A stretch of DNA of 64,000 nucleotides from Pseudomonas sp. GM78. GTDB taxonomy: Bacteria > Pseudomonadota > Gammaproteobacteria > Pseudomonadales > Pseudomonadaceae. Shown piece after piece: positions 3,830 to 59,313 of the stretch (position 1 is the stretch's first letter; each line of letters begins with the position of its first letter). The DNA lies in contig NZ_AKJF01000109.1 of NCBI RefSeq assembly GCF_000282475.1, forward strand, positions 16,627 through 80,626, in the 5' to 3' direction. The position numbers and the translations under genes were made by a program. The notes beneath the pieces were generated by a model. It made no database searches, was not told where the DNA came from, and saw nothing but the letters and a program-made list of their open reading frames with translations.

Positions 3830-3967
3830 CTATTCAAGTATTCATTTGTTCTTGTTATCGGCAAGTATGGGGCACTGCCCCCCACCTTTCCCACCCCATT
3901 ACGGGCGGGTTTTTTTAGCTGTTATATCGGTTACTTTTGAGCTTTCATCGATGCTCAAGAGCCCAAG

Positions 3968-5062: not shown

Positions 5063-5090
5063 AACCTGCCTCGTAATACCGGTTTCTGAT

Positions 5091-5164
5091 CTGTAGGAGC
5101 CGGCTTGCTGGAGATTTGGACGATGGTGTGCCAGACATGCGGCCATCCTTGCCAGCCAGCTTCC
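5091..5164. repeat. Degenerate REPIN-like element
   Basis: The left arm CTGTAGGAGCCGGCTTGCTGG resembles the opening arm of the REPIN at 1022, and the right arm GCCAGCCAGCTTCC is a decayed inverted partner. It lies in the 354-base gap between the acyl-CoA dehydrogenase and the DUF1302 gene. No gene was recognised in the rest of that gap. Confidence 0.5.
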
Positions 5165-5416
5165 ATCATCATTGCGCTCAATTCAAAAACTCGTGTCGTT
5201 CAGCCGGCTCCCGTAGCGGCAGGACGCTTTGTGCTGCCTGCCGGTTTTGCATGGGTTGGGTGTCACACCACCCATTTCTGGCTGGGCCCCACCTGCCGCT
5301 AGTGGGTGGTTTCAGCGCTGCCCCAAGCCCTTAGGCTGGGTTCAAGGGGATTGTCCCCTTGGCAAGGCCATTCCACACAACGAATAAGAAAGTGCACTGC
5401 ACAACATGGAGGGGTA

Positions 5417-7084
5417 ATGAAGTCTGCTCACCTTTGGGTACGAGAAGGCCAATTCCAGAAGGCTGTCCTCGGTATCGCTGTCACCGCCATTTCCTCGGGC
5501 ATGCTGCAGAACGCCAGTGCGATTTCCATCGATACCGGCAACCCGGATATACAAGTGCGTTGGGATAACACCATCCGCTACAACCTCGGTTATCGGGTGG
5601 AATCCCAGGACGACACCATCATTGGCAACCCGAATTTCGATGACGGTGATCGCAATTTTGACAAAGGTCTGGTCAGCAATCGCCTGGACCTGTTGAGCGA
5701 AGCGGATATCGTCTTCAATCAGCGCTACGGTGCGCGCGTCAGCGCTGCAGCATGGTATGACCAAGCCTACGAGAACCTGGACAACGATAGCCTGGCGACC
5801 TCCAACCACATGACGTCCAACGGCCAGCCGGCGCTGGGCCTGAGTCGCTACGCAGATCGTTACTACCACGGTCCGTCGGGAGAAATCCTCGACGCCTTCG
5901 TGTTCGGCCAGTTCGATGTCAGCGACGTGCAGCTCAACGGCAAGCTGGGTCAACATTCCCTGGCCTGGGGTGAAGCACTGCTGACAGGCGGGGCGATCCA
6001 TGGCGTGTCCTATAGCCAGAACTCGCTGGACCTGGGCAAGGCGCAAGCATCACCGGGTATCGAGGCCAAGGAGTTGTATCGCCCGCAACCGCAGATTTCG
6101 ATGCAGGCGCAGTTGACTCCGGAATTCTCGCTGGCCGCACAGTACTTTTTTGACTGGGAACGCATGCAAATCCCGGAGGCCGGTACTTATTTCGGTGGTC
6201 AGGACATCGTCAACGAAGGCGCCGAAAGCCTGGTCGCCCGGACAGGTGTGCCGGGTGTGCGGCTGCTTCGTGGACCGGACATCATCAAGGAAGAGCATGG
6301 CGACTACGGCCTGGCCGCACGCTGGCGCCCCACGTGGCTGGACGGCACCCTGGGTTTCTACTACCGAAGTTTCACCGACAAATTGCCCCAGGTTTATCAG
6401 CAGGCCTCCACCCGCCGGTTCGGCCTGGCGTATGGCGACGATATCGATATGTATGGCCTGAGCCTGTCCACCGTGGTGGGTGGCCTGAGCATCGGTGCCG
6501 ATCTCAACTATCGCAAGAACATGCCGTTGGTCAGCGGCGTAGCGGCACTGCCGGGCGGGGCCTTGCCTGACGATACGCCAGGTGCGCGGGGCAATACCGT
6601 GCACGGCCTGGTCAACGCCGTCGGCACCTTGTCGAACACGCCGTTGTTCGACTCCGCTTCCTACGCCGGCGAACTGACCTGGAACACCTGGACGTCGGTC
6701 ACCGAGCACAAGGACCTGTTCAAAGGCAACGACGCCTACCACGCCGTCGACAAGCCAGACAAAAACGCCATCGCCATGGGACTGAACTTCACGCCGACCT
6801 GGTACCAGGTGTTCCCCGGCGGCGACCTTTCGCTGCCACTGAGCTATTCCCAGGGACTGCGTGGCAACTCGGTGGTGACTTTGGGCGGCAACGAAGGCAC
6901 CGGCAGCTATTCGGTGGGCCTGGGCCTGGACTACCTCTCACAGTACCGGTTCGATCTGAAATACGTCGACTTCTTCGGCGACGTCGACAAGGACGCCAAC
7001 AACGTGGTGTCCGTGGCCAATGGCACTTCGGCGATCCTCAAGGACCGCGGGCTCATCACTTTCACCTTCAAGACCACCATTTGA
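5417..7084 (+). CDS. DUF1302 family outer-membrane protein
   Basis: The protein has 555 residues from ATG 5417, which sits behind a GGAGGGG site. An in-frame TTG or GTG further upstream would put non-signal sequence first. The N-terminus carries a signal peptide ending near MLQNASA. The mature part has the DUF1302 features DNTIRYNLGYR, DAFVFGQFDV, WGEALLTGG and SLDLGKAQASPGIEAKELY, and it ends in a beta-strand terminating in FTFKTTI, as outer-membrane barrels do. The family recurs in Proteobacteria beside DUF1329, YCF48-like and MMPL genes, exactly as here. An outer-membrane channel for a hydrophobic substrate is the usual inference but is not proven. A fragment of a paralogue lies at 29.9-30.3 kb. 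Confidence 0.92.
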   Translation: MKSAHLWVREGQFQKAVLGIAVTAISSGMLQNASAISIDTGNPDIQVRWDNTIRYNLGYRVESQDDTIIGNPNFDDGDRNFDKGLVSNRLDLLSEADIVFNQRYGARVSAAAWYDQAYENLDNDSLATSNHMTSNGQPALGLSRYADRYYHGPSGEILDAFVFGQFDVSDVQLNGKLGQHSLAWGEALLTGGAIHGVSYSQNSLDLGKAQASPGIEAKELYRPQPQISMQAQLTPEFSLAAQYFFDWERMQIPEAGTYFGGQDIVNEGAESLVARTGVPGVRLLRGPDIIKEEHGDYGLAARWRPTWLDGTLGFYYRSFTDKLPQVYQQASTRRFGLAYGDDIDMYGLSLSTVVGGLSIGADLNYRKNMPLVSGVAALPGGALPDDTPGARGNTVHGLVNAVGTLSNTPLFDSASYAGELTWNTWTSVTEHKDLFKGNDAYHAVDKPDKNAIAMGLNFTPTWYQVFPGGDLSLPLSYSQGLRGNSVVTLGGNEGTGSYSVGLGLDYLSQYRFDLKYVDFFGDVDKDANNVVSVANGTSAILKDRGLITFTFKTTI

Positions 7085-7099
7085 AGCGAGATCAATGAC

Positions 7100-8443
7100 A
7101 TGAACACATCACATAAAGTGCTCGTTGCCAGCCTGCTGTCGCTGGTCGGTAGTGTCGCCCTGGCGGCGCCCGACTACAGCCAGCTGGGCAAGAGCCTGAC
7201 CGCCGTGGGCGCGCAACAAAGTGGAAATGCGGATGGCAGCATCCCGGCATACACCGGCGGCCTGACCAGCGCGCCTGCGGGCTTCGACAAAAACAGCTTC
7301 GTTCGCCCGGACCCCTTCGCCAACGAAAAGCCGCTGTTTTCGATCGATCAGAAGAACGTCAGCCAGTACGCCGACAAGCTCACGGCAGGCACGGTGGCCC
7401 TGATCAAGCGCTACCCGAGCTTCAGAATCGATATCTACCCGACTCACCGCACCGCAACGTCACCTCAGTGGGTGCTGGACAACACGATCAAGAACGCGGG
7501 GAAGGCGACGCTGGAGGCTGACGGAACGTCGGTGGCCGGAGTCCACGCGAGTATCCCGTTCCCGATTCCACAAAACGGCAACGAAGCCATGTGGAACCTG
7601 TTGATGCGATACAACGGCGACACGATGGACTTCCGCAATTTCAAGGCCTTCAACGTCAATTCCTCAGGCCAGATGAGCATGTCCACCCAAGGGCGGTTCC
7701 TGGTCGAGTCGGAGTATTACAACCCGGCCAAGGTTGACAGCAGTTTCCTGCAGCGTACCCGGCTGGATTACACCGGGCCGGCTCGCCGTGCAGGGGAGGT
7801 CGCCATGGTGCTCGAACCGGCCATGTACACCAAAACCGACCGCCGCGCCTTTCAGTACCTGCCCGGGCAGCGCAGAGTGAAGCTGGCTCCGGACCTTGCC
7901 TACGACACACCCAACACCTCCACGTCGGGCATGTCGACCATGGACGATGTCGGCCTGTTCAACGGCAAGCAGGATCGCTTCGACTTCAAGCTGGTGGGCA
8001 AGAAGGAAGTGTACGTGCCTTATAACGATTACCGCCTGGTGTATGCCGACAACCCGCAGGCGATATTCACGCCCAACCATATCAATCCTGACTATGTGCG
8101 CTGGGAGTTGCACCGGGTCTGGGTGGTCGAGGCGACACTCAAGCCGGGTGCACGACACATCTATAAAAAGCGTGAGTTCTATCTCGACGAAGACAGTTGG
8201 GCACCGTTGGCAGTGGACCAATACGATGCCCGCGACAGCCTGTGGCGTGTGGGTTTCAACTATCCGACCCAGAGCTACGATGCCTCGACGTTTTCCAGTT
8301 TCACCGTCGGGCACTATGACTTGATCGGCGGCAACTACTACATCCACCTCTGGCCGGGCACGCCTGGTTTGCGTATCGCTTCCGAACACCAGCCTGACAA
8401 CTACTGGTCGCCTGACTCCATGGCCGGCAGCGGCATTCGCTAA
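7100..8443 (+). CDS. DUF1329 family periplasmic/outer-membrane protein
   Basis: This 447-aa protein starts with a clear signal peptide (LVASLLSLVGSVALA, cleaved before APDYSQLGK). It continues with the DUF1329 signature GQQ-like start, DGSIPAYTGGL, and later IYKKREFYLDEDSW. It begins 15 bases after the DUF1302 stop, so the two are translationally close. DUF1329 proteins are thought to fold like LolA/LolB lipid-binding proteins and nearly always accompany DUF1302. A hairpin terminator follows the gene. Confidence 0.92.
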   Translation: MNTSHKVLVASLLSLVGSVALAAPDYSQLGKSLTAVGAQQSGNADGSIPAYTGGLTSAPAGFDKNSFVRPDPFANEKPLFSIDQKNVSQYADKLTAGTVALIKRYPSFRIDIYPTHRTATSPQWVLDNTIKNAGKATLEADGTSVAGVHASIPFPIPQNGNEAMWNLLMRYNGDTMDFRNFKAFNVNSSGQMSMSTQGRFLVESEYYNPAKVDSSFLQRTRLDYTGPARRAGEVAMVLEPAMYTKTDRRAFQYLPGQRRVKLAPDLAYDTPNTSTSGMSTMDDVGLFNGKQDRFDFKLVGKKEVYVPYNDYRLVYADNPQAIFTPNHINPDYVRWELHRVWVVEATLKPGARHIYKKREFYLDEDSWAPLAVDQYDARDSLWRVGFNYPTQSYDASTFSSFTVGHYDLIGGNYYIHLWPGTPGLRIASEHQPDNYWSPDSMAGSGIR

Positions 8444-8458
8444 GTCAACTGACTGCTG

Positions 8459-8500
8459 GACCGCGCGCAACCCCCAGGTGGCGCGCGGTCTGCCGATTTT
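8459..8500 (+). terminator. Hairpin terminator or attenuator after the DUF1329 gene
   Basis: A perfect 10-bp stem GACCGCGCGC / GCGCGCGGTC (8459-8468 with 8481-8490) has a 12-base loop and is followed by TGCCGATTTTT. It sits between two co-directional genes of one apparent operon. Partial termination, lowering expression of the YCF48 and MMPL genes, is therefore plausible. Confidence 0.7.
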
Positions 8501-8520
8501 TCCGAACGAGGATTTTCGCC

Positions 8521-9537
8521 ATGTTCCAACAATGGCTTCGGCCTGTGATGGCTCTGGCTGCACTCAGTTGTTTGCCTGCGCTTGCCGAACCGGTATTCCA
8601 GGACCCGTTGGATACGCCCGCGATGCATAGCGTTCTGGCCACGTCGGCGCCACTCAATGCGGTGGCCAGGGCCGGTGATCGACTGGTGGCGGTCGGGTTG
8701 CGCGGGGTGATTCTGTACAGCGACGATCAAGGTACGTCCTGGGCGCAAGCCGAATCTCCCAGCAGTGTGGACCTGACTTCTGTTTATTTCGTGAACGCCC
8801 TGCAAGGCTGGGCGGTGGGGCATCAGGGTTTAGTGCTGCACAGCACGGACGGTGGCCGTACCTGGCTACGTCAGCTCGACAGCCTGCGCATTGGCGCACT
8901 GTTGAACCAACACTCAAACCGTGAAGCAGGTCAGGTGCCAACCGAGGGCAGTACGGATTTCCCTCTGCTGGACGTCTGGTTTGAAGATGCACTGCATGGT
9001 TTCGTCATTGGTGCGTTCAACCTTGTTTTCTACACCGAGGACGGCGGGCAAAACTGGAGCCCGTGGTCGGCGCACATGGACAACCCGCAGGGGTTGCATC
9101 TGTACGCCATTCGCCCAGCGGGCGACACGTTGTTCGTGGCGGGTGAGCAAGGGTTGCTGCTGCGATTGAATCGTAAAAAACAACGCTTTGAAGCGCTACC
9201 CACGCCTTACAACGGCAGTTACTTCAACCTGATTGGTACTCCGCAACTGATCCTGGCGATCGGCCTGCGCGGCAACGCCTACCGCAGCACCGACAAGGGG
9301 CAGACCTGGCAAAAGGTTAATACCGGCCTGGCGGCGAGCCTGGCCAGCGGCACAGTCCGCGCCGACGGTTCGATTGCCTTGGTCAGCCTGGCAGGGGATG
9401 TGCTGGTCAGTGATGACCAGGCGCAGTCCTTCAAACGCCTGAAAGTCGAGCGGTCCGCGCCCTTTTTTGGCGTGGCCGATATGGGCTCGGCCGGGCTTAG
9501 CCTGGTCGGCATGCGTGGCGTACGCGTAGCCCGATAA
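8521..9537 (+). CDS. YCF48-like (photosystem II stability/BNR-repeat) exported protein
   Basis: The protein has 338 residues with a signal peptide ending LPALA and repeated beta-propeller blades of the BNR/YCF48 type: VILYSDDQGTSWAQA, LVLHSTDGGRTWLRQ, LVFYTEDGGQNWSPW and RSTDKGQTWQKV. It is probably periplasmic. Homologues typically sit next to MMPL transporters in DUF1302/DUF1329 clusters, which suggests an accessory role in transport across the envelope. The MMPL gene follows after 20 bases. Confidence 0.88.
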   Translation: MFQQWLRPVMALAALSCLPALAEPVFQDPLDTPAMHSVLATSAPLNAVARAGDRLVAVGLRGVILYSDDQGTSWAQAESPSSVDLTSVYFVNALQGWAVGHQGLVLHSTDGGRTWLRQLDSLRIGALLNQHSNREAGQVPTEGSTDFPLLDVWFEDALHGFVIGAFNLVFYTEDGGQNWSPWSAHMDNPQGLHLYAIRPAGDTLFVAGEQGLLLRLNRKKQRFEALPTPYNGSYFNLIGTPQLILAIGLRGNAYRSTDKGQTWQKVNTGLAASLASGTVRADGSIALVSLAGDVLVSDDQAQSFKRLKVERSAPFFGVADMGSAGLSLVGMRGVRVAR

Positions 9538-14385: not shown

Positions 14386-17300
14386 TCAGAACTTGACCTT
14401 GATGCCAAGGATGCCTTCGTAGCTTCGGCTATCGCCTTCGAAAGCCTTCTGGTACCCCACCGACCCGGTCACGGAAGTGCGGTCGTTGATCTGGTAGTCG
14501 ACACCGAGGTTGAGTTCACCCCAGGTACCGCGCATGTCATTGGTGAAGGGTACGTATCCGGCGGCCGAGGAGAATTCGGTTTTCGGCTGGCCCTTGAACT
14601 CATGCCAGACGCTTGGGCGCACCCAGGCGTTGATGCGTTGCAGCTCGCCTTTGTCGTCTTCACGGAACCAGTCCTTGTCGACCCGCACGCCCAGGCGGCC
14701 AGTCAGCGAGTCGACATCGTTGAAACGGACCTCGGCAGCACCGTCTTGGGCATTCTTGATGTTGGACTTCGAGTAGACCACTTGCGCCTGGGGTTCGATG
14801 TACATCTCCTTGTCGGCGTCGAGGATGAACGGCCGGCCGACTTCCACCGAAGCGGTCACGCCATGGCCACGGGTTTTCAGCTTGTCCGCGTCGCCGGGTT
14901 TGGCCTCGGCTTTGAACCGGTGCAACTGCAATACGCTGTCGACGTAGCTGCCCGTCGGGGTGTAGTGGGTCCAGTAGCCACCCAGACTGATGGCGCGCAG
15001 GCCATCAGAGCCGGCGAACTTGCCATCCGTACGATCGACGCTGCCGTCGATGCTGCCGATGCCAAGGGACAGGCCAGCCTGATTGGTGCGACCAAAGGCG
15101 TCCTCGCTGTGATAGAGGTCGATACCGACCTGGAAGGCGCGCACCGAGTAGTCGTGGTTGAAGCTGGCAGAGGAATCCTTGCCGTTGCTGTAGATCACTC
15201 GACCCCAACCCAGCGATGGGCCGGCAGTGCGTTCGTCTTCGTAGAGCAACGGGTCGACGGTGGCCCGGCGGCGTTCTTCGCCAACCCGTTCGTGCAGCGT
15301 GTCGACCATGGCCCGGCTGTAGTGCAGCGCCATGGCCGGGATGCCTTGGTACAGCGATGTTTCGGCGCGGTAGTTGGGCGCCTGTGGAAATACCGGCGCA
15401 GGGGAGACCGGCACCTCAGGATCAGTGGGTGTAATCGGATTTACAGGATCGGTCGGTATGATCGGATTTACCGGGTCAGTCGGTACGTCCCTGGTCGAGC
15501 GCAGATACCAGGCCTGTTCGTTGCTGTCGTCCTGGCTGGCGCGGTGCAGGGTGTACTCGTATGGGCCGGCCTTGACCTGGCTGAGCAGACGAAATGCTTC
15601 AGGTTGGGTGGTACCGCCGTTGACCGCATCGACCACCATGATGCCGTTGCCTGTGGTCAATGCACCGGCGCCGCCGGCGTTCTTGATCTGCAGGTTGGTG
15701 CTGCCGCTGGCCTGGCCACCGTCCACCACCAGCCGATCCGAGGGCGAGCCGTCATCGAACAGATAAGTGTTCAGAGCAATGGTGCCATTTTCGCCGTGAT
15801 AGTTGTTCACGGTCAGTTGTTTGAAGGTGTTGCCCACGGGTGCACTGAAGTCGATCAGGCTGGCGTTGTTGCGCAGGTGGCTCAGGTTCGAAGGCCCTGT
15901 GAGTTGCCATATGCTGATATCACGCAGGGTCACATCGGACTGACTGCCCGCGGCCGTGGTGGCCGCGCCACTCACGACCGAGCCGGAGAGGTCGATGTGC
16001 GCGTTGCCGGCGGCGGTCGGCGAGGCCGCCGTGTCGAGCCACAGGCGGCTGCCGCCAACGCTTGAGTCAGTCAATTGCAGGGAGGCGGGTCCACGAGTGC
16101 TGATGGTGCCGCCATCGATGTTGCGCAGAATGCCGTTGTTGACGCTGGCTTGCGGCGTATAAAAATCGCTGCCGCTTAGCGCCAGGGCTGCCGAGCCTGC
16201 ACCCGAGGCGCTCAGGGTGACGCGGTCGGCATCGATGCGTGCATCGTTTTCCGCCATTGCCGCGTGTGCTTTTGCGCCGGAGGTGGTCGTGCTGACATTT
16301 TCAAGGGCAATGACACTGGGAACGCCTGCGGTAAATTCACCGTTGCTCAGGCTGTACGCACCATGAGCGCTGGCGCCGGTGGTGTTGATCACGCTGTTGG
16401 TAGCGGCCAGCACACCACCGTTGACGGCATTCAGGCCTGGGGCATTGCTGCCGCTTGTGGAAACTGAAGCGTTGTTGAGTGTCAGGGTCGCCTTGCGTTC
16501 GCCGTGCGCCACGCTGTCTTGCTTGACCATGGCACCGGCCGCGCTGGCGCCGAAGGTGCGGACATTGACATTGTCGGCAAACAGACCCGCGACAATATGG
16601 TCCCCTGGCCATTCGACCAGCGAATACAAACCGTGGGCCGATTGGCCTTCAGTCGTGACCGACAGATTGTTCAGATAGGCCATACTGCCGTCATCCACGC
16701 CGACACCATGGGCCATGCGACCAAAGGTGTGGACGGCGGTACCGTCGGCCCACAACGTAGTGGGTTTGCTGGCGTCCCCGCTGGGTTTCAAGGCGATCCC
16801 GATGGCGCGGGTACCCGCGAGCAGATCCGCGTCGCCATGGGTGGTCACCGAGCCGCCTTCCAGCCGAGCATGCGCGCCGGTACTGAGCACCAGGCCTTCC
16901 GACTCACCTTTACCGAACGTCTCGATTTGCATATTGCGGGCGTTCAATGTGCTTGGCGGCAGGCCAGCATCCTGAACGACGCCATTGATGCGCACGCCTT
17001 GGGTGTTGTCCTTGAGTGCGGTGATCGAGCTATTGGTGACGTTCACTTCAGCCTGGGATTGAGCCAGGATGCCGTGCGCGCCGGCTTTCTCGGAAACAAT
17101 TTCCGACTGGTCCAGGGTGAATCTGGCCCCGGCATCGTTAACGTTCACGCCCTTGCTGCCATTCCAGACATCTTCCTTGATGGTCAAACGGCTGTCGGAC
17201 AGGCTGGCTGCAGCACCGCCACTGACCACCACACCGTGGGAGAGCCCGTTGACCGTACCGCCGGCCAGTCCGTGCATGACGATATCGGTGTTTTCCACGT

Positions 17301-18336
17301 CGATGTTCGAACCGGCGCCTTTGGCGAACAGGCCGTACATGCCGGCACCGGTGACATCCAGCGTGCTGTGTGCACCGCCTACTGACACGGAACCGCCGGA
17401 CTCGGCATGCACGACACCCATGCCGAGGCTCTTCACGTTGTTTGGATTGCTATAGGTCAGCTCGCTGTTTTTCAGGGCGACGGCCGCACCGGACTCGACA
17501 CGTACCGCGCTGGTGTTGGTTGCGGTCATATCCACTTTGACGCCGTTGCCATCGATGCGGCTGCCGTCATCCAATGCCAGCAGCCCGTGGCTGCCTGACC
17601 CGGTAGTAGCGACTTGAACATTGTTCAGTTGCACCTGGCCGCCGTCCAGGGCCACCGCGCCACGGGAGCCCTTGGCAACCGTGCTGACGTCGCCGCCCTT
17701 GAAGTCGATCCGACTACCGGCGCCGCGGGCGATCAGGCCGGTGTTGTTGCTGCCTGAGGCGCCACCCATGCTGATGGAAGCGTTGGTCAAGTCGATTTGG
17801 CCGCCATTCTCGGCAATGACGCCGGTCATGTTGCTGACATTGAGCGGTACGTTCGCCGTGTTCTTCGGAATCAGAATCACGTTGGCATTCCGCGCTTCGA
17901 TACGGCCACCGTCGGCGGCGTGCAAACCACGCTGACCGTTGGCCGAGACCGTGCTGGTGGAGCCACTGTCCACCTTGCCGCGATCGAAGTTGATTGCGAT
18001 GCCTGACAGCGCTTGCACGCCGGTGGCGTTCGCGGCACGTAGCGTGACCGATTCGTCGCTGTGGTCACCGTCAGTGGCGATGCCAACACCGCCGGCCGTG
18101 GTCACGGTGGCACCGAGCAGGAAAACCTGAGGCGCGTTGCGCAGCGCCTCCATGGCGATTGCAAGGTAGAAGGGTGGAGTGTCAGGGGTGCCGGGGATCG
18201 TCGCCCAATCTGCGGTTTGCGCCTCGGTGATATTGATGTTGAAAAGGCCGGCCAGGATCAGGCTCAGTGCAGTAGCCAGCTTGTTGCGACGCAGGTGGGT
18301 AAGGGCACCATGCGTGGTATTTGTGTAAGTAGTCAT
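14386..18336 (-). CDS. Autotransporter (type Va) with pertactin-like passenger
   Basis: This 1316-aa protein has three parts. An extended N-terminus with a signal (RRNKLATALSLILAGLFNI) comes first. The passenger then runs to about residue 1000 and is built of short glycine-, asparagine- and serine-rich beta-helix repeats such as ARGAGSRIDFKGGDVST and GLFAKGAGSNIDVENTDI. A Pro/Asp/Val linker (TDPVNPI repeats) and a roughly 270-residue beta-barrel ending GILGIKVKF close it. Type V proteins place the passenger on the cell surface, often for adhesion or biofilm formation. The adjacent response regulator and a palindrome at 18416 suggest dedicated regulation. Confidence 0.93.
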   Translation of the reverse strand: MTTYTNTTHGALTHLRRNKLATALSLILAGLFNINITEAQTADWATIPGTPDTPPFYLAIAMEALRNAPQVFLLGATVTTAGGVGIATDGDHSDESVTLRAANATGVQALSGIAINFDRGKVDSGSTSTVSANGQRGLHAADGGRIEARNANVILIPKNTANVPLNVSNMTGVIAENGGQIDLTNASISMGGASGSNNTGLIARGAGSRIDFKGGDVSTVAKGSRGAVALDGGQVQLNNVQVATTGSGSHGLLALDDGSRIDGNGVKVDMTATNTSAVRVESGAAVALKNSELTYSNPNNVKSLGMGVVHAESGGSVSVGGAHSTLDVTGAGMYGLFAKGAGSNIDVENTDIVMHGLAGGTVNGLSHGVVVSGGAAASLSDSRLTIKEDVWNGSKGVNVNDAGARFTLDQSEIVSEKAGAHGILAQSQAEVNVTNSSITALKDNTQGVRINGVVQDAGLPPSTLNARNMQIETFGKGESEGLVLSTGAHARLEGGSVTTHGDADLLAGTRAIGIALKPSGDASKPTTLWADGTAVHTFGRMAHGVGVDDGSMAYLNNLSVTTEGQSAHGLYSLVEWPGDHIVAGLFADNVNVRTFGASAAGAMVKQDSVAHGERKATLTLNNASVSTSGSNAPGLNAVNGGVLAATNSVINTTGASAHGAYSLSNGEFTAGVPSVIALENVSTTTSGAKAHAAMAENDARIDADRVTLSASGAGSAALALSGSDFYTPQASVNNGILRNIDGGTISTRGPASLQLTDSSVGGSRLWLDTAASPTAAGNAHIDLSGSVVSGAATTAAGSQSDVTLRDISIWQLTGPSNLSHLRNNASLIDFSAPVGNTFKQLTVNNYHGENGTIALNTYLFDDGSPSDRLVVDGGQASGSTNLQIKNAGGAGALTTGNGIMVVDAVNGGTTQPEAFRLLSQVKAGPYEYTLHRASQDDSNEQAWYLRSTRDVPTDPVNPIIPTDPVNPITPTDPEVPVSPAPVFPQAPNYRAETSLYQGIPAMALHYSRAMVDTLHERVGEERRRATVDPLLYEDERTAGPSLGWGRVIYSNGKDSSASFNHDYSVRAFQVGIDLYHSEDAFGRTNQAGLSLGIGSIDGSVDRTDGKFAGSDGLRAISLGGYWTHYTPTGSYVDSVLQLHRFKAEAKPGDADKLKTRGHGVTASVEVGRPFILDADKEMYIEPQAQVVYSKSNIKNAQDGAAEVRFNDVDSLTGRLGVRVDKDWFREDDKGELQRINAWVRPSVWHEFKGQPKTEFSSAAGYVPFTNDMRGTWGELNLGVDYQINDRTSVTGSVGYQKAFEGDSRSYEGILGIKVKF

Positions 18337-21880: not shown

Positions 21881-22735
21881 GTGCCGGAAAACGACGTGTT
21901 TGCCGCCGCGGATGCGGTGTTGGCCCGTGGGGAACGGCCAACGGTGGAACGTGTCCGCCTGGAACTGGGGCGCGGCAGTCCGGCGCGGGTCGGTGGCCTG
22001 CTCGATCAGTGGTGGGCACGCTTGGCCGAACGCCTGAGTGGCGAGATCCGCTTGCCGGCATTACCGAACGAGGTGTCACAAGCTTTTGTTGCGGTGTGGC
22101 AACAGGCAATCCTTCTCGCGCAAGGTGTCGCCGAACAGGCATTGGACAAACAACGACAGGTAGTCGCCGCAGAGCGTGAGCGGGTCGCTGCCGTCGAGGA
22201 GCAGGCGCGTCAGGATGCGGCGCAGTTTCGGCAGCAAACGGTGGAGGCAGTGGCGGGACGCCTAACCGTCGAGACGCGACTGGCTGACCTCGAGTTGTTG
22301 CTGGCGCAGCGTCAGACTCAGATCGAGGACCTGCAGCAACAGCGTGAAGACCTGTTGCGCGAGCGCGGCGAGGCTCAGCAACAAAGTCAGACACTCCAGC
22401 AGGAAATGCAGGCGCTGCGGCTAAAGATGGAGCAGGAGCGCATCGCCCAGGAAAGCTACGTCCGTGGCGTCGAAAATCGCGCTTACCGCGAGGTCGATCA
22501 CGCTAGGGAGGAGGGCAAAGCGATGATGATCCAACTCAAAGCCACCGGGCGGCAGGTCGAGCAGTTACAACGGCGGCTGGAGTCGACTCAAAACGAGCTC
22601 AGTCAATCTAGGCAATTGACTGCGGCACAGCAGGCCCGCGCCGAAGCCCTAGAACAACAATTGACGAAGGTGCGTCAGGTTCCCGCCGTCAAGCGTAAGC
22701 CCAAATCCCGAAAATCCGTAGTATCGACCGATTGA
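21881..22735 (+). CDS. KfrA-like/TnpT-like DNA-binding coiled-coil protein
   Basis: This 284-aa protein starts at GTG 21881; an in-frame stop closes the frame just upstream. Residues 1-60 form a KfrA-type DNA-binding domain (VFAAADAVLARGERPTVERV, then LGRGSPARVGGLLDQWW). Residues 110-265 are a long Gln/Glu/Arg-rich coiled coil (EEQARQDAAQFRQQ, LLAQRQTQIEDLQQQ), and the tail is basic (KRKPKSRKS). The architecture matches plasmid KfrA regulators and the TnpT co-resolvase of Tn4651-type transposons. No transposase or recombinase is adjacent, so it may be a transposon relic or an autonomous nucleoid-binding protein. The upstream motif array is its likely binding site. Confidence 0.75.
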   Translation: MPENDVFAAADAVLARGERPTVERVRLELGRGSPARVGGLLDQWWARLAERLSGEIRLPALPNEVSQAFVAVWQQAILLAQGVAEQALDKQRQVVAAERERVAAVEEQARQDAAQFRQQTVEAVAGRLTVETRLADLELLLAQRQTQIEDLQQQREDLLRERGEAQQQSQTLQQEMQALRLKMEQERIAQESYVRGVENRAYREVDHAREEGKAMMIQLKATGRQVEQLQRRLESTQNELSQSRQLTAAQQARAEALEQQLTKVRQVPAVKRKPKSRKSVVSTD

Positions 22736-23573: not shown

Positions 23574-25883
23574 TCAGGCGTCCCGAAAGCTTCTCGGCGG
23601 TGTCGCGTCGATCCCGATCACTCGAATAAATCGCCTGCGATCCTGCCCTTCTAATTCAAGAGCCCGGGTCTGAAGCAATTTAATGAGCTCACTGAATGTC
23701 ATTCGATCGGAACCTGTAGGGTAATGCCATTTTCGATCTTTCTCCTGCAGCACAATGACTAGGAAGCCTGTCGTTGCATTGCGGTTGCGCATGTACTGCC
23801 CCACCAACTGGTGCTCGAGTGCTTCCAAATACTGGGGCACGGTCCAGCGCATGGACATCTTGAGTTCGATGGAGGCGTAGTCTGAACCTTTCCGACAAAG
23901 CACATCCCGTCGCGTGGCCTCTGCTGTCTCGGACTCCCGAGTGACGGTATAACGAGCCCCCGCGAGGTGATTCATTTCACTCCCAAGCAAGGCCTGAAAA
24001 TCGGCTTCCAACGCGAGGCCTTCCTTGTCGGTACTGATGCGAGAAAAGTTCACGGCGCTGAAGAACCGACGAAGACTGAACTCACCTTTTTCAATGCTGT
24101 ACTTCACGGCCAGAAGGTCTTCCTGGACCGCCAGCGCCAGCGAAAGTGTGCCGGCGACTGGCTGCCTGAAGTCGTCATCGAACTTGTCAAAATCCCGTTG
24201 CAATACTGGCGAACGACTGAAGCGTGCTTCCTGCATGTCGAATAAAACACTGCTCAGGTACTGTACTTGCTCGTCGCCCGCAACCTTGCGAATTGCCTCA
24301 AGGGCTTCATAGGCTCTTGTCGACCCTGCTGCAGCAATGGCGGGTATGAGCGCATCACGCAGTTGCTCGGCAGCATCCCGATTACCTGGCGTATACACAC
24401 TTCCTTCAGGATGCTCGATGTCGTTCTCAGGTCGGACGATACCGAAGGTCCATCTATAAAGGGCGGCCAGTGTGTCAACCCCGTCGTCACTCTGTTTGGC
24501 GAGCCCGATCACTTTCGACCCATAGTCCTTTCCGAGGTAGGCCGCCAGTTCGAAAACAAAACTCTGTGCTTGGGGACGGGCGTCAACCAGCCACCGCTCA
24601 AGATGGGATTTGAAGGAATCTGGATGGGTAGTAAGCCAGAAAGCCCCCCACATGACACTTTGTGCCACTGTTTCCAGTAGAGCGGGCTGAATGACGCTCT
24701 CGCCTGATTCAGTAAGCATGGCCGTGCTGAATGTCGCCTGAAGTCGGCTCGACGCCTGCGCCTCAATCACGTCTTGAGTTGTTGTGCCAGGAACATTGCT
24801 TACCAGATTGAGGAGCGACTCGGTCGTGTGATTTCTGCACCGTGGCTGTTTAAGAAGAAAGGACCAGGCCGCCGGCGCCAACGCTGTCTGAATGCTCTCC
24901 GGTGCGTTTTTTAATTCAACAAGCAACTCTTCTGCGTGTTCGAAGGAGGTTGGCCCCCGATCCGCGCGCGCGATCAGCTGCTGTAACTCGACAATCGCCA
25001 CAGCCTGGTGTGCGTCGACCAATGGCCAGAACCATTTAGGAAATCCGTTGATTTCAAAGCAAGCGTATTGAATGGCCTGTCCTACCTGGCTCCCCGACAA
25101 GGTCGGCAAATCGGTGCCGTCGCGAAGCTCTTGGCATAGGCCCAGCAAGCCAGCCACGGTGATGTGGTACGTAGACCTTGGTTCATCCTCCTTAAACATT
25201 GGCAGTTGATCGCGCCAAAGCGTGGACAGCCCGGCCTTGAATGCGGTTGCCAGGTCAGCGCCAGCGACCGCCGCCACGGGCTCGATGCTAACGTCGCTGT
25301 AGCGGGACGACGTGTTTGCCTGCAAAAGCCAGCTAACCAACCAGGCAATTGTCTGACGTCCAGAGCCGTCACGGATCAGCTCAATCTCTTTGTGCAGGGT
25401 TGCCAGTGATGTGGCGTCCATGGTCAAGCGACTCTGTCGAATTTCCTTGGCCGTCGGCCGGGGCTTTTTGCCAGCCGTGGTGTTAGCTTGAGATTTCAGA
25501 ATCGCGGACCGCAGCGGGTCTGACATGAGCGTCGTGGCGTCCTCCAAGGTGGGTTCACAGATAAAGCCAAAGCCAAAAATTGCTTGCATGAGCAATTCAG
25601 CATTTGGGACTGTTAGCTGTAGGATTTTCCGAAGGAGTTCCAAGCGTACCGCCGGGTTCTGGCCAAGCGCTGTGCGCAGAGCTGAAAAATCACTCGAACC
25701 ATAAAAGCATTCGCGGAAAAACCGACGGATGATGAGGCAAAGGAGAACTACGCGGGCTTCATAGCGGATCCCTAAACGAGTGATAAGCGAGGCCAGTACA
25801 TCGATCACAAAACTGATCCTACGATCGGAGAAGTCCGAATAGACTTTCTTTCGGGCGTCGGGCAGATGACGGTCCCGGACCAA
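23574..25883 (-). CDS. C-terminal half of the interrupted gene: helical domain plus PD-(D/E)XK nuclease-like domain
   Basis: This is a 769-codon open frame in the same reading frame as the NTPase upstream, separated from it by one TAG (25908-25910) and 8 sense codons. The first possible start is TTG 25883, which has no convincing ribosome site, so independent translation is doubtful. The region is mostly alpha-helical. Near the end it carries a PD-(D/E)XK-like nuclease core: an acidic EADFQALLG helix, D660 in RRDVLC, the E673-L-K675 motif in ASIELKMS, and a following QLVGQYM resembling the QxxxY of RecB/Cas4 nucleases. It is inferred to be the effector end of a NACHT-NTPase defence-like protein. 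Confidence 0.7.
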   Translation of the reverse strand: MVRDRHLPDARKKVYSDFSDRRISFVIDVLASLITRLGIRYEARVVLLCLIIRRFFRECFYGSSDFSALRTALGQNPAVRLELLRKILQLTVPNAELLMQAIFGFGFICEPTLEDATTLMSDPLRSAILKSQANTTAGKKPRPTAKEIRQSRLTMDATSLATLHKEIELIRDGSGRQTIAWLVSWLLQANTSSRYSDVSIEPVAAVAGADLATAFKAGLSTLWRDQLPMFKEDEPRSTYHITVAGLLGLCQELRDGTDLPTLSGSQVGQAIQYACFEINGFPKWFWPLVDAHQAVAIVELQQLIARADRGPTSFEHAEELLVELKNAPESIQTALAPAAWSFLLKQPRCRNHTTESLLNLVSNVPGTTTQDVIEAQASSRLQATFSTAMLTESGESVIQPALLETVAQSVMWGAFWLTTHPDSFKSHLERWLVDARPQAQSFVFELAAYLGKDYGSKVIGLAKQSDDGVDTLAALYRWTFGIVRPENDIEHPEGSVYTPGNRDAAEQLRDALIPAIAAAGSTRAYEALEAIRKVAGDEQVQYLSSVLFDMQEARFSRSPVLQRDFDKFDDDFRQPVAGTLSLALAVQEDLLAVKYSIEKGEFSLRRFFSAVNFSRISTDKEGLALEADFQALLGSEMNHLAGARYTVTRESETAEATRRDVLCRKGSDYASIELKMSMRWTVPQYLEALEHQLVGQYMRNRNATTGFLVIVLQEKDRKWHYPTGSDRMTFSELIKLLQTRALELEGQDRRRFIRVIGIDATPPRSFRDA

Positions 25884-25907
25884 GCGAATTACCAGCGAAC
25901 GCGCCAG

Positions 25908-27797
25908 CTAATAGGCCTGCTGATCATCCGCAGCGTCGAGAACCGGACCAGTGATAGTGGAGGTCAGGCGGTAAGCTCCTTGACCCCGGTCAAACTGTCG
26001 TTCGACCAAGGTAACGATCTGGGCCACCGTCAGGTGCGACCAGGCCAGGCGGATAATCGAGGCGGAGATCAGGCTTTCATGTAGATCAGTTTCCTCCATC
26101 AGCGCGGTTGCGATGCCTTGAAGGTCCTCGTTGACGCCAAGGTCCAGCAGGTAATACAGGTCGAGGCCCTGTCGTTGTTTCATGAGCAGGGCGAGGTCAC
26201 ACTGACACGCCTTCAGCACCTGCTGGCGCAGAATGTCTGATTGGCTGTAGGTCGCAATATTGATCAGCGCACTTCGGGCGCGATGATTTGAACCATATTG
26301 CTCGAACAGCTCGCTGATCAATGGCAGGTTGCAGTCTGCGCCAACCTGCCAGTAGTTTTCGGGTGTGAGATCGTAATGTTTGCGCCCAAGGCGATCCCCT
26401 TGTGTGGCCACGAGTTGAATACTTCGCCTGATCGCCTCGTGGGCATCAGCCATAGGGATGTCCCGGTTACGTAAGTCACCAAAAAAGGCGACCACTTGCG
26501 GGTCGCGCGGCAAAAGTTCTGCCCGGCAGTAGGCGCTCAACGTCGCCAGCCAACCCAAAATCGGCAGCAGCCGACGCTGTACGCCACGCTCACCAGTAGG
26601 GGCGTCCCAGGAAAACGCATCGACCAGGCGTTTGGCATCTTCGGGTGATTGAACCCGCGAGGCGAAATGTTGCGCGGCAAGAAATGGAACAAGTTCCTCA
26701 GGGTAGAGCTTGACCTGGTGGTGGCCAGCATCAATGAATAGTTGCGATGTCAGCAATTGCTGCAAGCCCGACTCGGAGAGTTGGGTACCCGCAATCAGTC
26801 GCGCGGAAAGCACAGCGTCATCCACGCCGAACTGTTCCGAGGGCATCTCGATGTTTATCCGCTGACAAACCATTGAGGCTGCCGCAATTCTGCTTACAAC
26901 CGCCACCTGTGCAGAGGGAGTGCCAGCAGTTGAAAGGCGATCGTCGCGTCCTTGTTGGAGTTCGACAGCCTGGACCACCCCCTTGTAGACGTCCGTTAGA
27001 CACTCTGGTTGGCGGTTTGCCAGATCGAGGTGGGCAAGGATCGCAAGTCCGCCAGGGCTCTTCGTGAACCCAGGCAGGCCCTTGTTGTGGGCTACCTCGA
27101 GGAGTGTGGCTGCATCATCAACCCCTTGTACACGCTGTAGGTAGGTTTTGGCTTGGGTTGAGGTTAGCGAAGCAAGGGAGAAAATGGACAAGGCGGCCTG
27201 GCTGCTGCTTAGACGGGTGGTTATGGCCTTGTTCGCTTCATCATCAAACAGCCCTCCCAAGTCGGCCTCCTCCTTGGAGGTGACCTCAAGGGGAACATCC
27301 AGAATCTCTGAGAGCTGGCTCAAAACATCCTGAGAGAGTACGGCCGGGCGTGTAGAGATGATCCACTGGGTGTTACTGTTTGGCCATTGAACCGCCTTGA
27401 GGACCTTCTTCAGGGCATGATGCAGGTCGGCCCGCTGCTTGGGCGAAGCCTCATCCAAGGAATCGATGAACAGGGTGACTGGCGCATCAGGAACCTGCTG
27501 CCAGGCCTCGAAGGCATCGACCTCAGACGGGATCAGTGAGTCCTCAAAGGCACCCCGGTCAAGCACTTTGCGCAGTTCGATAAACACCGCGTATTTCCCC
27601 GCCGCGCGTTCACTCTTTGCCTGCTCTTTGAGTTCAGTGGTTTTCCCGAAGTTAGCCGGCGCGACGATAATCGCATAACGGCTTGCCAGAACCTCACCCC
27701 ATGACAATTTACGACCGTTGAGGTCTGACCGCAGTAACTCCTCCTGGTCGTATTTCCTCCGTTGGACGAAGCGTCGGTCTAGATTGAGGTACGGCAT
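25908..27797 (-). CDS. N-terminal half of the interrupted gene: NACHT/STAND-type NTPase
   Basis: The frame gives 629 residues from ATG 27797, which has GGAG 9 bases upstream; GTG 27812 is an alternative start. It opens MPYLNLDRRFVQRRKYDQEE. A Walker A motif APANFGKTTE lies near residues 46-55 and a NACHT-style Walker B VTLFIDSLDEAS near 107-118, with a possible arginine sensor in IISTRP. The remainder is helical-repeat-like. NACHT/STAND NTPases in bacteria are often anti-phage sensors that activate a linked effector. The frame ends at TAG 25908, and reading through it continues directly into the nuclease-like half at 23574-25883. A full-length product would have about 1407 residues. Confidence 0.78.
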   Translation of the reverse strand: MPYLNLDRRFVQRRKYDQEELLRSDLNGRKLSWGEVLASRYAIIVAPANFGKTTELKEQAKSERAAGKYAVFIELRKVLDRGAFEDSLIPSEVDAFEAWQQVPDAPVTLFIDSLDEASPKQRADLHHALKKVLKAVQWPNSNTQWIISTRPAVLSQDVLSQLSEILDVPLEVTSKEEADLGGLFDDEANKAITTRLSSSQAALSIFSLASLTSTQAKTYLQRVQGVDDAATLLEVAHNKGLPGFTKSPGGLAILAHLDLANRQPECLTDVYKGVVQAVELQQGRDDRLSTAGTPSAQVAVVSRIAAASMVCQRINIEMPSEQFGVDDAVLSARLIAGTQLSESGLQQLLTSQLFIDAGHHQVKLYPEELVPFLAAQHFASRVQSPEDAKRLVDAFSWDAPTGERGVQRRLLPILGWLATLSAYCRAELLPRDPQVVAFFGDLRNRDIPMADAHEAIRRSIQLVATQGDRLGRKHYDLTPENYWQVGADCNLPLISELFEQYGSNHRARSALINIATYSQSDILRQQVLKACQCDLALLMKQRQGLDLYYLLDLGVNEDLQGIATALMEETDLHESLISASIIRLAWSHLTVAQIVTLVERQFDRGQGAYRLTSTITGPVLDAADDQQAY

Positions 27798-28166
27798 AGG
27801 CAGGCGCTCCACGAAAACGGTGCGATACGTTAACCTCCAGGGCCCGGAGTTGAAAGCTCGCGATCAGAGGCTTGCTTGATATGAAACTACACTTGCAAGC
27901 CTGCGGGGGCACTCCATGATATGCGTGTGATGCTCAGGTTTGCGCCGAAACGGGCCGGCACGGTGATGTAAAGCGGCATGGGGTCCGATGTTCGGGCTCG
28001 GCAAGAAAGGTTGATTAGCCGTGGATGACGCCGGCCCCTCATCCACGGCCGCTTCCACAACGCATATTGGCGCATCGATAAGTAGGTCTTGCGGTCGCTT
28101 GCCACCAAGGTGGCTGTTCACTGATTGCAGCAATCCGCCAGAAGTGTGGGTTGGGGGAGAGGTGCA
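27798..28166. other. Unassigned stretch between the NTPase gene and the MFS remnant
   Basis: No supported gene is present. It holds the upstream region of the NTPase gene on the minus strand. Minus-strand open frames of 73 and 89 codons overlap each other in different frames and match no family I can name. The inverted sequence GATGACGCCGGCCCC...CCACGGCC is weak. Confidence 0.4.
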
Positions 28167-29076
28167 TCAGTCAATCCGGCGTTGCCACAGTGCAAATATC
28201 GCGGCCCCTGTCGACAGGATCGCTATGAACTGAAACCCATCGAGATAACTCATGAAGATAGATTGGTCGGCAACCAGCTTCAAGATCTGCGAAAGCGCCA
28301 AATCATGGGCAGCCGATAGACTTTGGCCCGCCTGCTCGAAGTGATGGGTCAACTTCTCCATCGCGTGACCAAATACTGGATTGTTGGCGCTGACATTTGT
28401 CGACAGGTTGGTCTGATGAATAGCCACGCGATGTTGTTCGAAGACGATGATCGTGGCTGTCGAAAACGAGTAGGCCATTTGCTTGACGATATTTTTGATG
28501 CGATAGCTGTGGGGGTACAGCTCCATTGCGAAGCTCTGAAAGGCGATATTGGCCACCGGCAAGGCAACAAACATCAGCAGCAGACCGCGCAGGGTCAGAG
28601 GCAGCAATAGCCAGGAAGTACTGGCATACGGCGGCATGCTTGCCATCCATCCGCCGATAAAAGCGGTAAGCAGAAAACCTGGGACGAAGATCCATTTCTT
28701 GTGGCTGACAAGACCGGCGTAACGGAAATAGATCAGGGCTCCGCCGAGAGATGCGAGGGACGTCATACCCACCAGGTGTCCCGCATTTTCCACGGGATAT
28801 CCAAGCCCTCCTTGCAGGAATCGGGAGATCAGGTACCCGAGGGCGTTGTTGATAAAATAATAAAGTGCATACAGCATCAAGCCGGTGCGAAAGGTCGCCT
28901 CTTTCAATCCGTGAAAACGCAACAACGGTCGCGGATGATTCCACTGCTGCCATACGAATACGCCGAGCAACAATAGGCCGCATGCGGTAAGCCCCTCCAG
29001 CAGGGGGGAATCGCTGAATTGGGCAAAGTTCAGTTGCTGCACCACGACTTGCAAGGCCCCGAGTGCCAATGCCGCT
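28167..29076 (-). pseudogene. MFS (DHA2/EmrB-like) transporter, 5'-truncated
   Basis: About 300 residues remain, corresponding to the C-terminal two-thirds of a 14-TM drug:proton antiporter. At least six hydrophobic helices can be read (LLLLGVFVW, LMLYALYYFINNALGYLI, WLLLPLTLRGLLLMFVAL, FIAILSTGAAIFALW). The gene is cut at 29076, where a 79-bp piece of the GGDEF gene begins, so the N-terminal helices and the normal start are missing. The apparent ATG at 29093 falls inside that foreign piece. It is inferred to be non-functional. Confidence 0.8.
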
Positions 29077-33484: not shown

Positions 33485-36484
33485 ATGACTAGTTTCCAAC
33501 CTGCTACCGAAAGCCAGACCGGCCACATCGGCGCCCGTCAGACCCGTGTCGAGGACGCCGCATTGTTGCGCGGCCTTGGCTGCTATGCCGATGACGCTGC
33601 GATCCCGCCGGGTACGCTACACGCGGCGATCATCCGTTCACCCCACGCTCATGCGCGGATCACCTCGGTGGACTTTTCCAAAGCGCTGCTGATGAAAGGC
33701 GTGCACGGCGTACTGGTCGGCGAAGACGTCAAACGCTGGGCGCTACCGTTCCCGGTGGGGGTGCGGCAGCCCATGGAGCACTGGTGCGTCGCCGTCGACA
33801 AGGTGCGTTACGTCGGAGAGCCTGTGGCCGTGGTGATCGCCGAGAGCCGCTATCTGGCCGAGGACGCCATCGAAGGTGTGCGCGTTGAATACGTGCCGCT
33901 GCCCCCGATCATCGACCCCGAACTGGCCACCGCCGAACAGGCGCCGATCCTGCACGAAGCCGTCGGCAGCAACGTGGTCAACGAACGGCGCTTTCGTTAT
34001 GGCGAGCCGGAGCAGGCTTTCGAGCAGGCGCCGCACAAGGTCTCGCTCAAAGTGAAATTTCCGCGCAGTTCCTGCACACCCATTGAATGCTATGTGGTGC
34101 TGGCTCAGTACGAGCGCGCCACCGGCATTTATGACGTGTTGGCCAATTTCCAGGGTCCCTACGCGTTGCACACGGTCATGGCCCGTGCACTGAATGTGCC
34201 CGGCAACCGCTTGCGTTTGCGCACACCGAAAGATTCCGGCGGCAGCTTTGGCATCAAGCAAGGGGTTTTCCCTTACGTGGTGATGATGGGCCTGGCGTCA
34301 CGCAAGGTCGGCGCACCGGTAAAGTGGGTCGAGGACCGTCTGGAACATTTGCAGGGGGCTTCTTCGGCGACCAATCGGGTGACCGAAATTGAAGCGGCGG
34401 TGGAAGCGGATGGCCGCATCACCGCTTTGCGTTATGACCAGATCGACGATTGTGGTGCCTACCTGAGAGCGCCTGAACCGGCGACGTTCTACCGCATGCA
34501 CGGCAACCTGACGGGCGCCTACGCGATCCGCAATTTGCAAGTGCGCAACCGAGTGGTGCTGACCAACAAAACCCCATCCGGCCTGAACCGTGGTTTCGGT
34601 GGCCCGCAGGTGTATTTCGCCCTGGAGCGGCTGCTGCAACACATTGCCGTGCAATTGAACCTTGATCCGTTGGACGTGATCCGCCGCAACCTGGTGCCGG
34701 CCGATGCCTTCCCTTATCGCGCGGCCGCCGGTGCGTTGCTCGATTCCGGCAATTACCAGGCAGGCATTGCCTTGGCGGCGGCTGACGGTGGACTCGACGA
34801 GTTGCTCAAACGTCGTGATCAGGCCCGTGCCGAAGGCCGGATCTATGGCATTGGCTATGCCGCTGTCATCGAGCCTTCGATTTCCAACATGGGTTACATC
34901 ACCACCGCGATGACGCCCGAAGAGCGGCGCAAGGCCGGTCCGAAAAACGGCGCTGTCGCAACCGCCACCATCAACGTCGGCCCGTTGGGTGACGTCAGTG
35001 TGCACGTGTCCTCGGCGCCGCAAGGGCAGGGCCATCAAACCACCGTCGCTCAGGTCGTCGCCGAAGTGCTAGGCGTCGCGCTGGAATCCATCGTGGTCAA
35101 CGTCGAGCTGGATACCCAGAAGGACGCCTGGTCGATTGCCTCTGGCAACTATTCCAGCCGCTTCGCGGGCGCTGTGGCCGGTGCCGTCTATAAGGCCGCG
35201 CTGAAGATCCGCGATCGCCTCGCCGCGATTGCCGCCGAGCAATTGCAGGCCAGTCCCGAAGATATTCGTTTCGCCGGTGGCAAGATTTTTGTGGTCAATG
35301 GCGGGGCGGTGGCGCCATTCCATCGGATTGCTGGTGCGACCCACTGGTCGCCGGGCTTGCTGCCGGAAGGTGAAAGTGGCGGACTGCGCGAAACCGCCTT
35401 CTGGAGCCCGCCGCAATTGGTGGCCCCGGACGACCAGGATCAGGTCAACAGCTCGCTGTGCTACGGCTTTGTCTTCGACATCTGTGGTCTGGAAATCGAC
35501 CGCATGACCGGCGAGATCCACATTGATCGCTACGTCACCTGCCATGACGCCGGCCGCCTGCTCAACCCGGCGCTGGTCGATGGCCAGATTCGTGGTGGCT
35601 TCACCCAAGGCCTCGGCGCGGCGCTGATGGAAGAGTTCGCCTATGGCGAGGACGGCAGTTTCCTCTCCGGGACCTTCGCCGATTATCTGGTGCCGACCGC
35701 ACCGGAAGTGATCGAACCGGTGATCCTGCACATGGAAACGCCATCGCCATTCACCCCACTGGGCGCCAAGGGTGTGGGCGAGGGCAACAATATGAGCACG
35801 CCGGTGTGCATCGCCAACGCGGTGGCCGACGCCCTTGGCCGCTCGGACATCCGTCTGCCACTGACGCCATCGAAAGTACGCACGCTCATCGGGATCGACG
35901 AGCCGCCACGGCCCGCCGGTATGGAGCCCGATGAAAACCTGGACGCGGCAGCTGCCGGTGGACCGGCACTGCGGGCCAACGACTCGGTGGTGATTCCTGC
36001 TGCGCCGCAACAGGTCTTCGATACCTTGCTCGACCCGCAGACGCTGGCGGCAATCATTCCCGGTTGCCACGACCTCGTGCTTGAAGGCGAAAACCGTTAC
36101 CGCGCAGACGTCACCGTCGGCGTCGGCATGATCCGTGCGCGCTTCGAGGCCAAGGTTGCCCTGAGTGATCTGGACCCGCCGCATTCATTGCGTCTGTCCG
36201 GTTCCGGCAGCAGCTCGATGGGTTCGGCCCAGGGTCAGGCCAAGGTTCGTTTCGTCCAACTGGAAAATGGCCACACACGTCTGGAATACCAATACCAGGT
36301 GGCGGTCAGCGGCAAAGTCGCTGCGGTCGGCGGCCGAATGTTGCAAGGGGCCTCGAAAGTGATCATCGGACAAATCTTTACTCGCCTGTCGCAACGGGTC
36401 AGCGGCCAAGCCATCTCCACCGGCTGGTGGGCGCGACTGCGGGCCTCGCTTGGCGCGCTGTTTGGCAAGGGAGGTGCGCAATGA
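33485..36484 (+). CDS. Molybdenum hydroxylase large subunit (CoxL/XdhB-like) fused to a CoxG-like SRPBCC domain
   Basis: This is a 999-aa protein. Residues 15-810 form the molybdopterin-binding large subunit of the xanthine dehydrogenase/CO dehydrogenase family, with GQT-like HARITSVDF, GGSFGIKQG, GFGGPQVYFALE, SSAPQGQGHQTT and the active-site glutamate in AKGVGEGNN (about 764). Residues 828-975 are a separate CoxG/SRPBCC domain (VVIPAAPQQVFDTLLDPQTL, GCHDLVLEGENRYRADV), normally encoded by its own gene. The CODH-specific VAYRCSFR loop is absent, so CO is not the substrate. It forms one enzyme with the FAD and 2Fe-2S subunits that follow and hydroxylates an unknown compound. Confidence 0.9.
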   Translation: MTSFQPATESQTGHIGARQTRVEDAALLRGLGCYADDAAIPPGTLHAAIIRSPHAHARITSVDFSKALLMKGVHGVLVGEDVKRWALPFPVGVRQPMEHWCVAVDKVRYVGEPVAVVIAESRYLAEDAIEGVRVEYVPLPPIIDPELATAEQAPILHEAVGSNVVNERRFRYGEPEQAFEQAPHKVSLKVKFPRSSCTPIECYVVLAQYERATGIYDVLANFQGPYALHTVMARALNVPGNRLRLRTPKDSGGSFGIKQGVFPYVVMMGLASRKVGAPVKWVEDRLEHLQGASSATNRVTEIEAAVEADGRITALRYDQIDDCGAYLRAPEPATFYRMHGNLTGAYAIRNLQVRNRVVLTNKTPSGLNRGFGGPQVYFALERLLQHIAVQLNLDPLDVIRRNLVPADAFPYRAAAGALLDSGNYQAGIALAAADGGLDELLKRRDQARAEGRIYGIGYAAVIEPSISNMGYITTAMTPEERRKAGPKNGAVATATINVGPLGDVSVHVSSAPQGQGHQTTVAQVVAEVLGVALESIVVNVELDTQKDAWSIASGNYSSRFAGAVAGAVYKAALKIRDRLAAIAAEQLQASPEDIRFAGGKIFVVNGGAVAPFHRIAGATHWSPGLLPEGESGGLRETAFWSPPQLVAPDDQDQVNSSLCYGFVFDICGLEIDRMTGEIHIDRYVTCHDAGRLLNPALVDGQIRGGFTQGLGAALMEEFAYGEDGSFLSGTFADYLVPTAPEVIEPVILHMETPSPFTPLGAKGVGEGNNMSTPVCIANAVADALGRSDIRLPLTPSKVRTLIGIDEPPRPAGMEPDENLDAAAAGGPALRANDSVVIPAAPQQVFDTLLDPQTLAAIIPGCHDLVLEGENRYRADVTVGVGMIRARFEAKVALSDLDPPHSLRLSGSGSSSMGSAQGQAKVRFVQLENGHTRLEYQYQVAVSGKVAAVGGRMLQGASKVIIGQIFTRLSQRVSGQAISTGWWARLRASLGALFGKGGAQ

Positions 36485-59193: not shown

Positions 59194-59313
59194 CCTCAAC
59201 ACACTCACGTAACCTGGGAGCGGGCCTGTTGATCACGACGTGCAATGATCTACTGGATCCTCAAATGCCTGGATGAGCCCGGCAGACTGAAGACGCAAGT
59301 GTGGAGGATTATC

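Follow-up and report, generated by a model that had tools for sequence, protein, structure and literature searches.

A HyoA-like NACHT gene probably inactivated by a nonsense codon in Pseudomonas sp. GM78

One gene interrupted by an in-frame amber codon

The window analysed here (the whole 64,000-nucleotide stretch of Pseudomonas sp. GM78, contig NZ_AKJF01000109.1) includes on its minus strand, at 27797-23574, a single reading frame interrupted by one TAG at 25910-25908. Counted from the ATG at 27797, 629 codons precede this TAG (codon 630) and 777 follow it up to the stop ending at 23574, without any change of frame; these two stops are the only ones, the frame being otherwise open over 1407 codons, and an in-frame GTG lies upstream at 27812. 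The two parts match, in order, the same NCBIfam profile, NF058534 (HyoA), which bears the name 'NACHT domain-containing antiphage protein HyoA': the N-terminal half (25908-27797; NACHT nucleoside triphosphatase, NTPase, and first part of a middle region) matches positions 1-602 (E 2.7e-56, 191 bits), and the C-terminal part (23574-25907; 777 codons plus stop, with the remaining middle region and the nuclease-type end) matches positions 841-1429 (E 4.4e-88, 296.3 bits). The split gene is beyond chance, because both halves match one profile in order and the gene is open in another assembly; these matches make the two frames parts of a single defence-type gene. This bears out the preliminary description of the locus, made from the sequence letters, in which the two frames were read as one gene in register with a single in-frame amber codon. 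No second copy of the gene was found in a search of the window's genome.

The motifs at both ends were numbered on the joined product and compared in a 24-row alignment of the window with 23 relatives (rows picked as the longest stop-free frames, 5 of the 24 partial). The N-terminal half contains a Walker A motif (APANFGKTT, residues 46-54, minus strand 27636-27662; GKT at 51-53), with G51 and K52 in 19/19 covering rows and T53 in 18/19, and a Walker B motif (FIDSLDEA, residues 110-117, minus strand 27447-27470; DSLDE at 112-116), with D112, D115 and E116 in 19/19. A later arginine, R150, is likewise identical in all 19 covering rows, completing the set of motifs looked for in NACHT/STAND proteins, and the N-terminal NACHT motifs of the preliminary description are thus present where they had been placed. 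The Pfam NACHT model matches 2/12 family members (best E 0.0034) and gave no match to the window half.

The C-terminal end (residues 1264-1397, minus strand 23607-24008) is probably a PD-(D/E)XK-type nuclease, a putative assignment resting on invariant motifs. E1264, E1288, D1298, E1311-L-K1313 and Q1330-x4-Y1335 follow one another in this order, and E1264, E1288, D1298, E1311, K1313, Q1330 and Y1335 are identical in 24/24 rows and in 14/14 rows of a second alignment. PD-(D/E)XK nucleases are marked by a succession of acidic residue, D, E-L-K and Q-x4-Y, and the corresponding series (acidic helix residue, D, (E)-x-K, Q/Y) was found here. The nuclease residues named earlier as D660, E673 and K675, numbered from TTG 25883, correspond to D1298, E1311 and K1313 and stand; the QxxxY spacing proposed with them does not, the motif being Q-x4-Y. 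Pfam gave no match to such a nuclease for the end domain. The middle region is probably helical, as weak matches to HEAT repeats and designed repeats suggest.

Relatives and place in the HyoA-like family

The same gene is open in Pseudomonas sp. GM41 (NZ_AKJN02000006.1; 1412 codons from GTG), in Pseudomonas sp. GM49 (1429 codons stop-to-stop; 94% to the window over the second half) and in Ramlibacter alkalitolerans (44% over the second half), and the collinear match over nearly the full NF058534 profile falls within a single gene in GM41 and GM49, the window frame being interrupted. The position of codon 630, which lies in the middle region at a variable position of the 24-row alignment, encodes Lys in GM41, Gln in GM49 and Trp in Ramlibacter. 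Between GM41 and GM49, the nonsynonymous (dN) and synonymous (dS) substitution rates were 0.030 and 0.123 over the whole gene; the part beyond the stop position gave 0.028 and 0.092. With dN below dS there too, the second half, taken in its entirety, was also kept under purifying selection until recently.

Rows of the alignment having been selected as stop-free, their lack of stops is not independent evidence for intact relatives, which comes instead from the GM41 locus, a genus survey, a class survey and re-examined frames. In the genus survey, 398 sampled genomes were searched with the second half (E 1e-20 or better) and nine matched, including the window's own: in six of the other eight the match lies in a single frame of 1429-1466 codons, and two (L155 and L156) are remnants lacking the N-terminal part, beginning at about residues 756 and 1004 of a Burkholderia glumae protein, which may reflect decay or a rearranged protein. 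In the class survey with the HyoA model (369 genomes), 12 genomes matched, including the window's, five of them above the cut-off; the partial matches G430, G490, G649 and G665 were left out of closer examination. The end domain searched alone in these 369 genomes was present in eight, always within the HyoA-like family: six frames of 1434-1472 codons, the window, and a relative (G632) broken by frame changes. The check proposed in the preliminary description, whether homologues continue across this position without a stop, came out positive, the full-length relatives being single genes of about 1,400-1,470 codons, and the annotated intact records have one coding sequence each (9/9). A two-gene family was considered and rejected: no examined relative is a clean two-gene pair, and the one apparent pair, G632, consists of three frames. 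Further relatives were found in viral contigs (three loci, two of them used), and a phage collection gave two records covering 8% of the query.

Breakage in the HyoA-like family is not rare. The gene is broken by insertion in B. glumae too, as seen among plasmids: of 40 rows listed (48 records), 17 have a match that runs across an ISNCY transposase gene. All 17 are B. glumae, and the one read in detail, the BGR1 plasmid (L089), has the HyoA-family gene at 2893-8919 interrupted by the ISNCY transposase gene. In B. glumae BGR39S the HyoA-family gene is one coding sequence.

In a tree of 25 full-length proteins, a long branch with support 100/100 unites GM41, GM49 and Ramlibacter and sets them off from the remaining 22. 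At 484.3 bits, the intact GM41 protein stays below the curated HyoA cut-off of 1200 bits, which is passed by a B. glumae protein and a P. aeruginosa plasmid protein; by this rule the window protein is therefore classed as HyoA-like, on a deep side branch, and not as HyoA proper. It resembles HyoA in being collinear over most of its length, in its NACHT motifs, in the invariant C-terminal residues and in its similar size; it differs in its score, in its 17-22% identity to the nine more distant aligned rows, in its separate branch, and in the stop codon, seen in the window copy only. The match to EruA (NCBIfam NF058535) is partial: the best stretch of the first half (residues 199-443) matches at E 5.4e-14 and the Ramlibacter relative at 3.2e-16, whereas the second half has no match at E 1, the intact GM41 protein none at 0.001, and all scores are far below the EruA cut-off of 1000 bits.

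The bacterial NACHT proteins bNACHT25 and bNACHT32 (clade 6) are described, in the available part of the source, as combining NACHT with a PD-(D/E)XK deoxyribonuclease (DNase) that degrades DNA when triggered by phage (PMC12169576). Their DNase lies at the N-terminus and sensing is done by the C-terminus (PMC12169576), unlike the window protein and its HyoA relatives, predicted to have NACHT first and the nuclease last. The suggestion that the latter order is an uncommon architecture is not supported, the named HyoA family having it already; the three proteins of the long branch form, by the tree, a group of their own beside HyoA proper, with NACHT in front and the putative nuclease at the end. 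A literature search found no paper on HyoA, and the available parts of PMC13092281 and PMC13236601 do not describe the HyoA-like family; the antiphage function of the family would follow from its NCBIfam name.

The segment shared with GM41 and its surroundings

The gene lies in a 39,326-base-pair segment (window 21867-61192) common to GM78 and GM41, with 11 mismatches, no gaps and 99.97% identity; one mismatch sits at the very edge and the other 10 are spread across 39 kilobases (kb). To the left of 21867, nothing near-identical to the window's DNA was found in GM41, and the two are therefore different strains. At the left edge of the segment is a KfrA_N gene (21881-22735, plus strand; PF11740, E 1.9e-20), in which the start codon of the GM41 copy is absent in the window. 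Beyond it GM41 has a tyrosine recombinase gene (PF00589, E 3e-18) and an AAA ATPase gene; the recombinase gene, which adjoins KfrA_N in GM41, is missing from the left flank of the window. The gene order in GM41 is reminiscent of that of tnpS/tnpT in Tn4651-type transposons. Past the right edge both strains have the 20-base motif TAATGTATATTATGTTAAAT (window 61253-61272), at a distance of 60 bases from the edge in the window and of 57 in GM41; the DNA around it is otherwise unlike between the two, and the motif is perhaps a recombination site.

The gene is set between the KfrA_N gene on one side and mostly metabolic genes further on (Pfam, 10 frames). Defence genes do adjoin the Ramlibacter relative, namely Drt1a (1343 bits), PD-Lambda-3_B (358 bits) and an HsdR-type subunit of a type I restriction system (533 bits), a fourth neighbouring frame scanned there giving no match; a HerA-type gene scoring 558 bits is located close to a Rhizobium relative; and the scanned neighbour of the P. 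aeruginosa relative gave no match. Elsewhere in the window, a Clp-type AAA chaperone gene (56431-59193) is followed by a PsiE-family gene (59245-59820), both within the shared segment; a single frame at 33485-36484 encodes molybdopterin-binding dehydrogenase domains with a CoxG domain at the C-terminus; and 14386-18336 is an autotransporter gene of 1316 codons with autochaperone and beta domains.

Origin and meaning of the stop codon

We interpret the locus as one gene for a HyoA-like defence protein of the bacterial nucleotide-binding leucine-rich repeat (NLR) type, inactivated in this strain by the nonsense codon 630, and consider this interpretation quite probable. It draws support from the ordered match of both halves to one antiphage profile, the open relatives, the selection on the second half, the invariant motifs, the defence neighbours in Ramlibacter and the breakage of the gene elsewhere in the family. 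Several results weigh against it. Neither window half matches Pfam above its cut-off, PADLOC gave no match for the halves or for 12 family members, and the score stays below the HyoA cut-off (484 against 1200 bits). A PDB sequence search returned five weak matches, the best a synthetic fusion protein in the middle region (E 0.004), leaving the nuclease fold unsupported, and a further search for the nuclease end returned six matches at E 0.34-1.7, none of them a nuclease. The final 146 codons give a dN of 0.015 against a dS of 0.010, no excess of synonymous change, on too few differences for a judgement. In a PADLOC scan of 10 neighbouring window frames nine were without match, and the Clp-type gene was matched by its AAA parts only; since the family match is not based on context, the missing defence context in the window leaves the likelihood of the interpretation unchanged.

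The TAG is most likely a recent nonsense mutation, an ordinary gene loss. It may instead be an error of base calling or assembly, or the contig may mix two samples, the gene then being intact in the living strain; this we regard as unlikely. The draft assembly has 235 contigs, and the near-identical segment in GM41 carries a sense codon. Against an error, the 10 mismatches over 39 kb are more than short-read consensus errors would produce, and at the only other window-GM41 difference inside the gene the window has the GM49 base. Five mismatches to GM41 fall in the listed frames: three synonymous, one missense and one stop. A random single change in the gene would be synonymous in 24% of cases and a stop in 3.7%, and two such changes would include one or more stops with a probability of 7%; three synonymous changes among the four non-stop mismatches have a P of 0.047 (0.097 for three of all five), a pattern that real divergence fits weakly better than random error. 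At the first base of codon 630 no two of the three Pseudomonas copies agree, and they therefore do not show which state came first. The stop may even be the older state of a mobile segment, with GM41 a natural revertant and a costly defence gene toggled by point mutation between strains, a scenario to which we give rather little credence.

Readings in which the second half is still made are much less plausible. Programmed readthrough or amber suppression, yielding a low level of full-length protein, would fit a frame kept on either side of the TAG with no further stop in 1407 codons, but a very recent mutation likewise leaves the second frame open. The stop is not conserved, GM41, GM49 and Ramlibacter having sense codons at its position, and no CUA anticodon was found among the transfer RNAs (tRNAs) read from the draft genome, which may lack some (57 places found, covered by 50 scanned loci, overlapping loci being counted repeatedly). 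On these two grounds the readthrough put forward in the preliminary description is rejected as very improbable. A split NTPase/nuclease pair of two functional proteins, the second starting at TTG 25883 or further in, has in its favour a frame of 769 codons from that TTG and two Pseudomonas genomes that retain the C-terminal part only. The 24 bases 5' of TTG 25883 contain none of GGAG, GAGG and AGGA, in agreement with the earlier remark that no ribosome site lies there; a scan of 25700-28200 gave no promoter-like site (1.1 expected by chance); and the halves are fused in close relatives. We see hardly any chance for such a pair.

If the locus is a HyoA-like gene inactivated by nonsense mutation, the intact protein would begin with a NACHT NTPase, continue through a long middle that is probably helical, and end in a PD-(D/E)XK-type nuclease. 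Bacterial NACHT proteins offer an analogy for how it may work: triggered by infection, the NTPase would switch or oligomerise, whereupon DNA cleavage by the nuclease would halt phage or cell. The nonsense mutation at codon 630 would part NTPase from nuclease, leaving the gene most likely dead.

GM41 and the window strain thus provide a natural allele pair, whole in the former and stopped in the latter, within a near-identical 39-kb setting. The gene further draws attention to a side branch among HyoA-like proteins, whose putative nuclease sits at the end opposite to that of the bNACHT effectors (PMC12169576).

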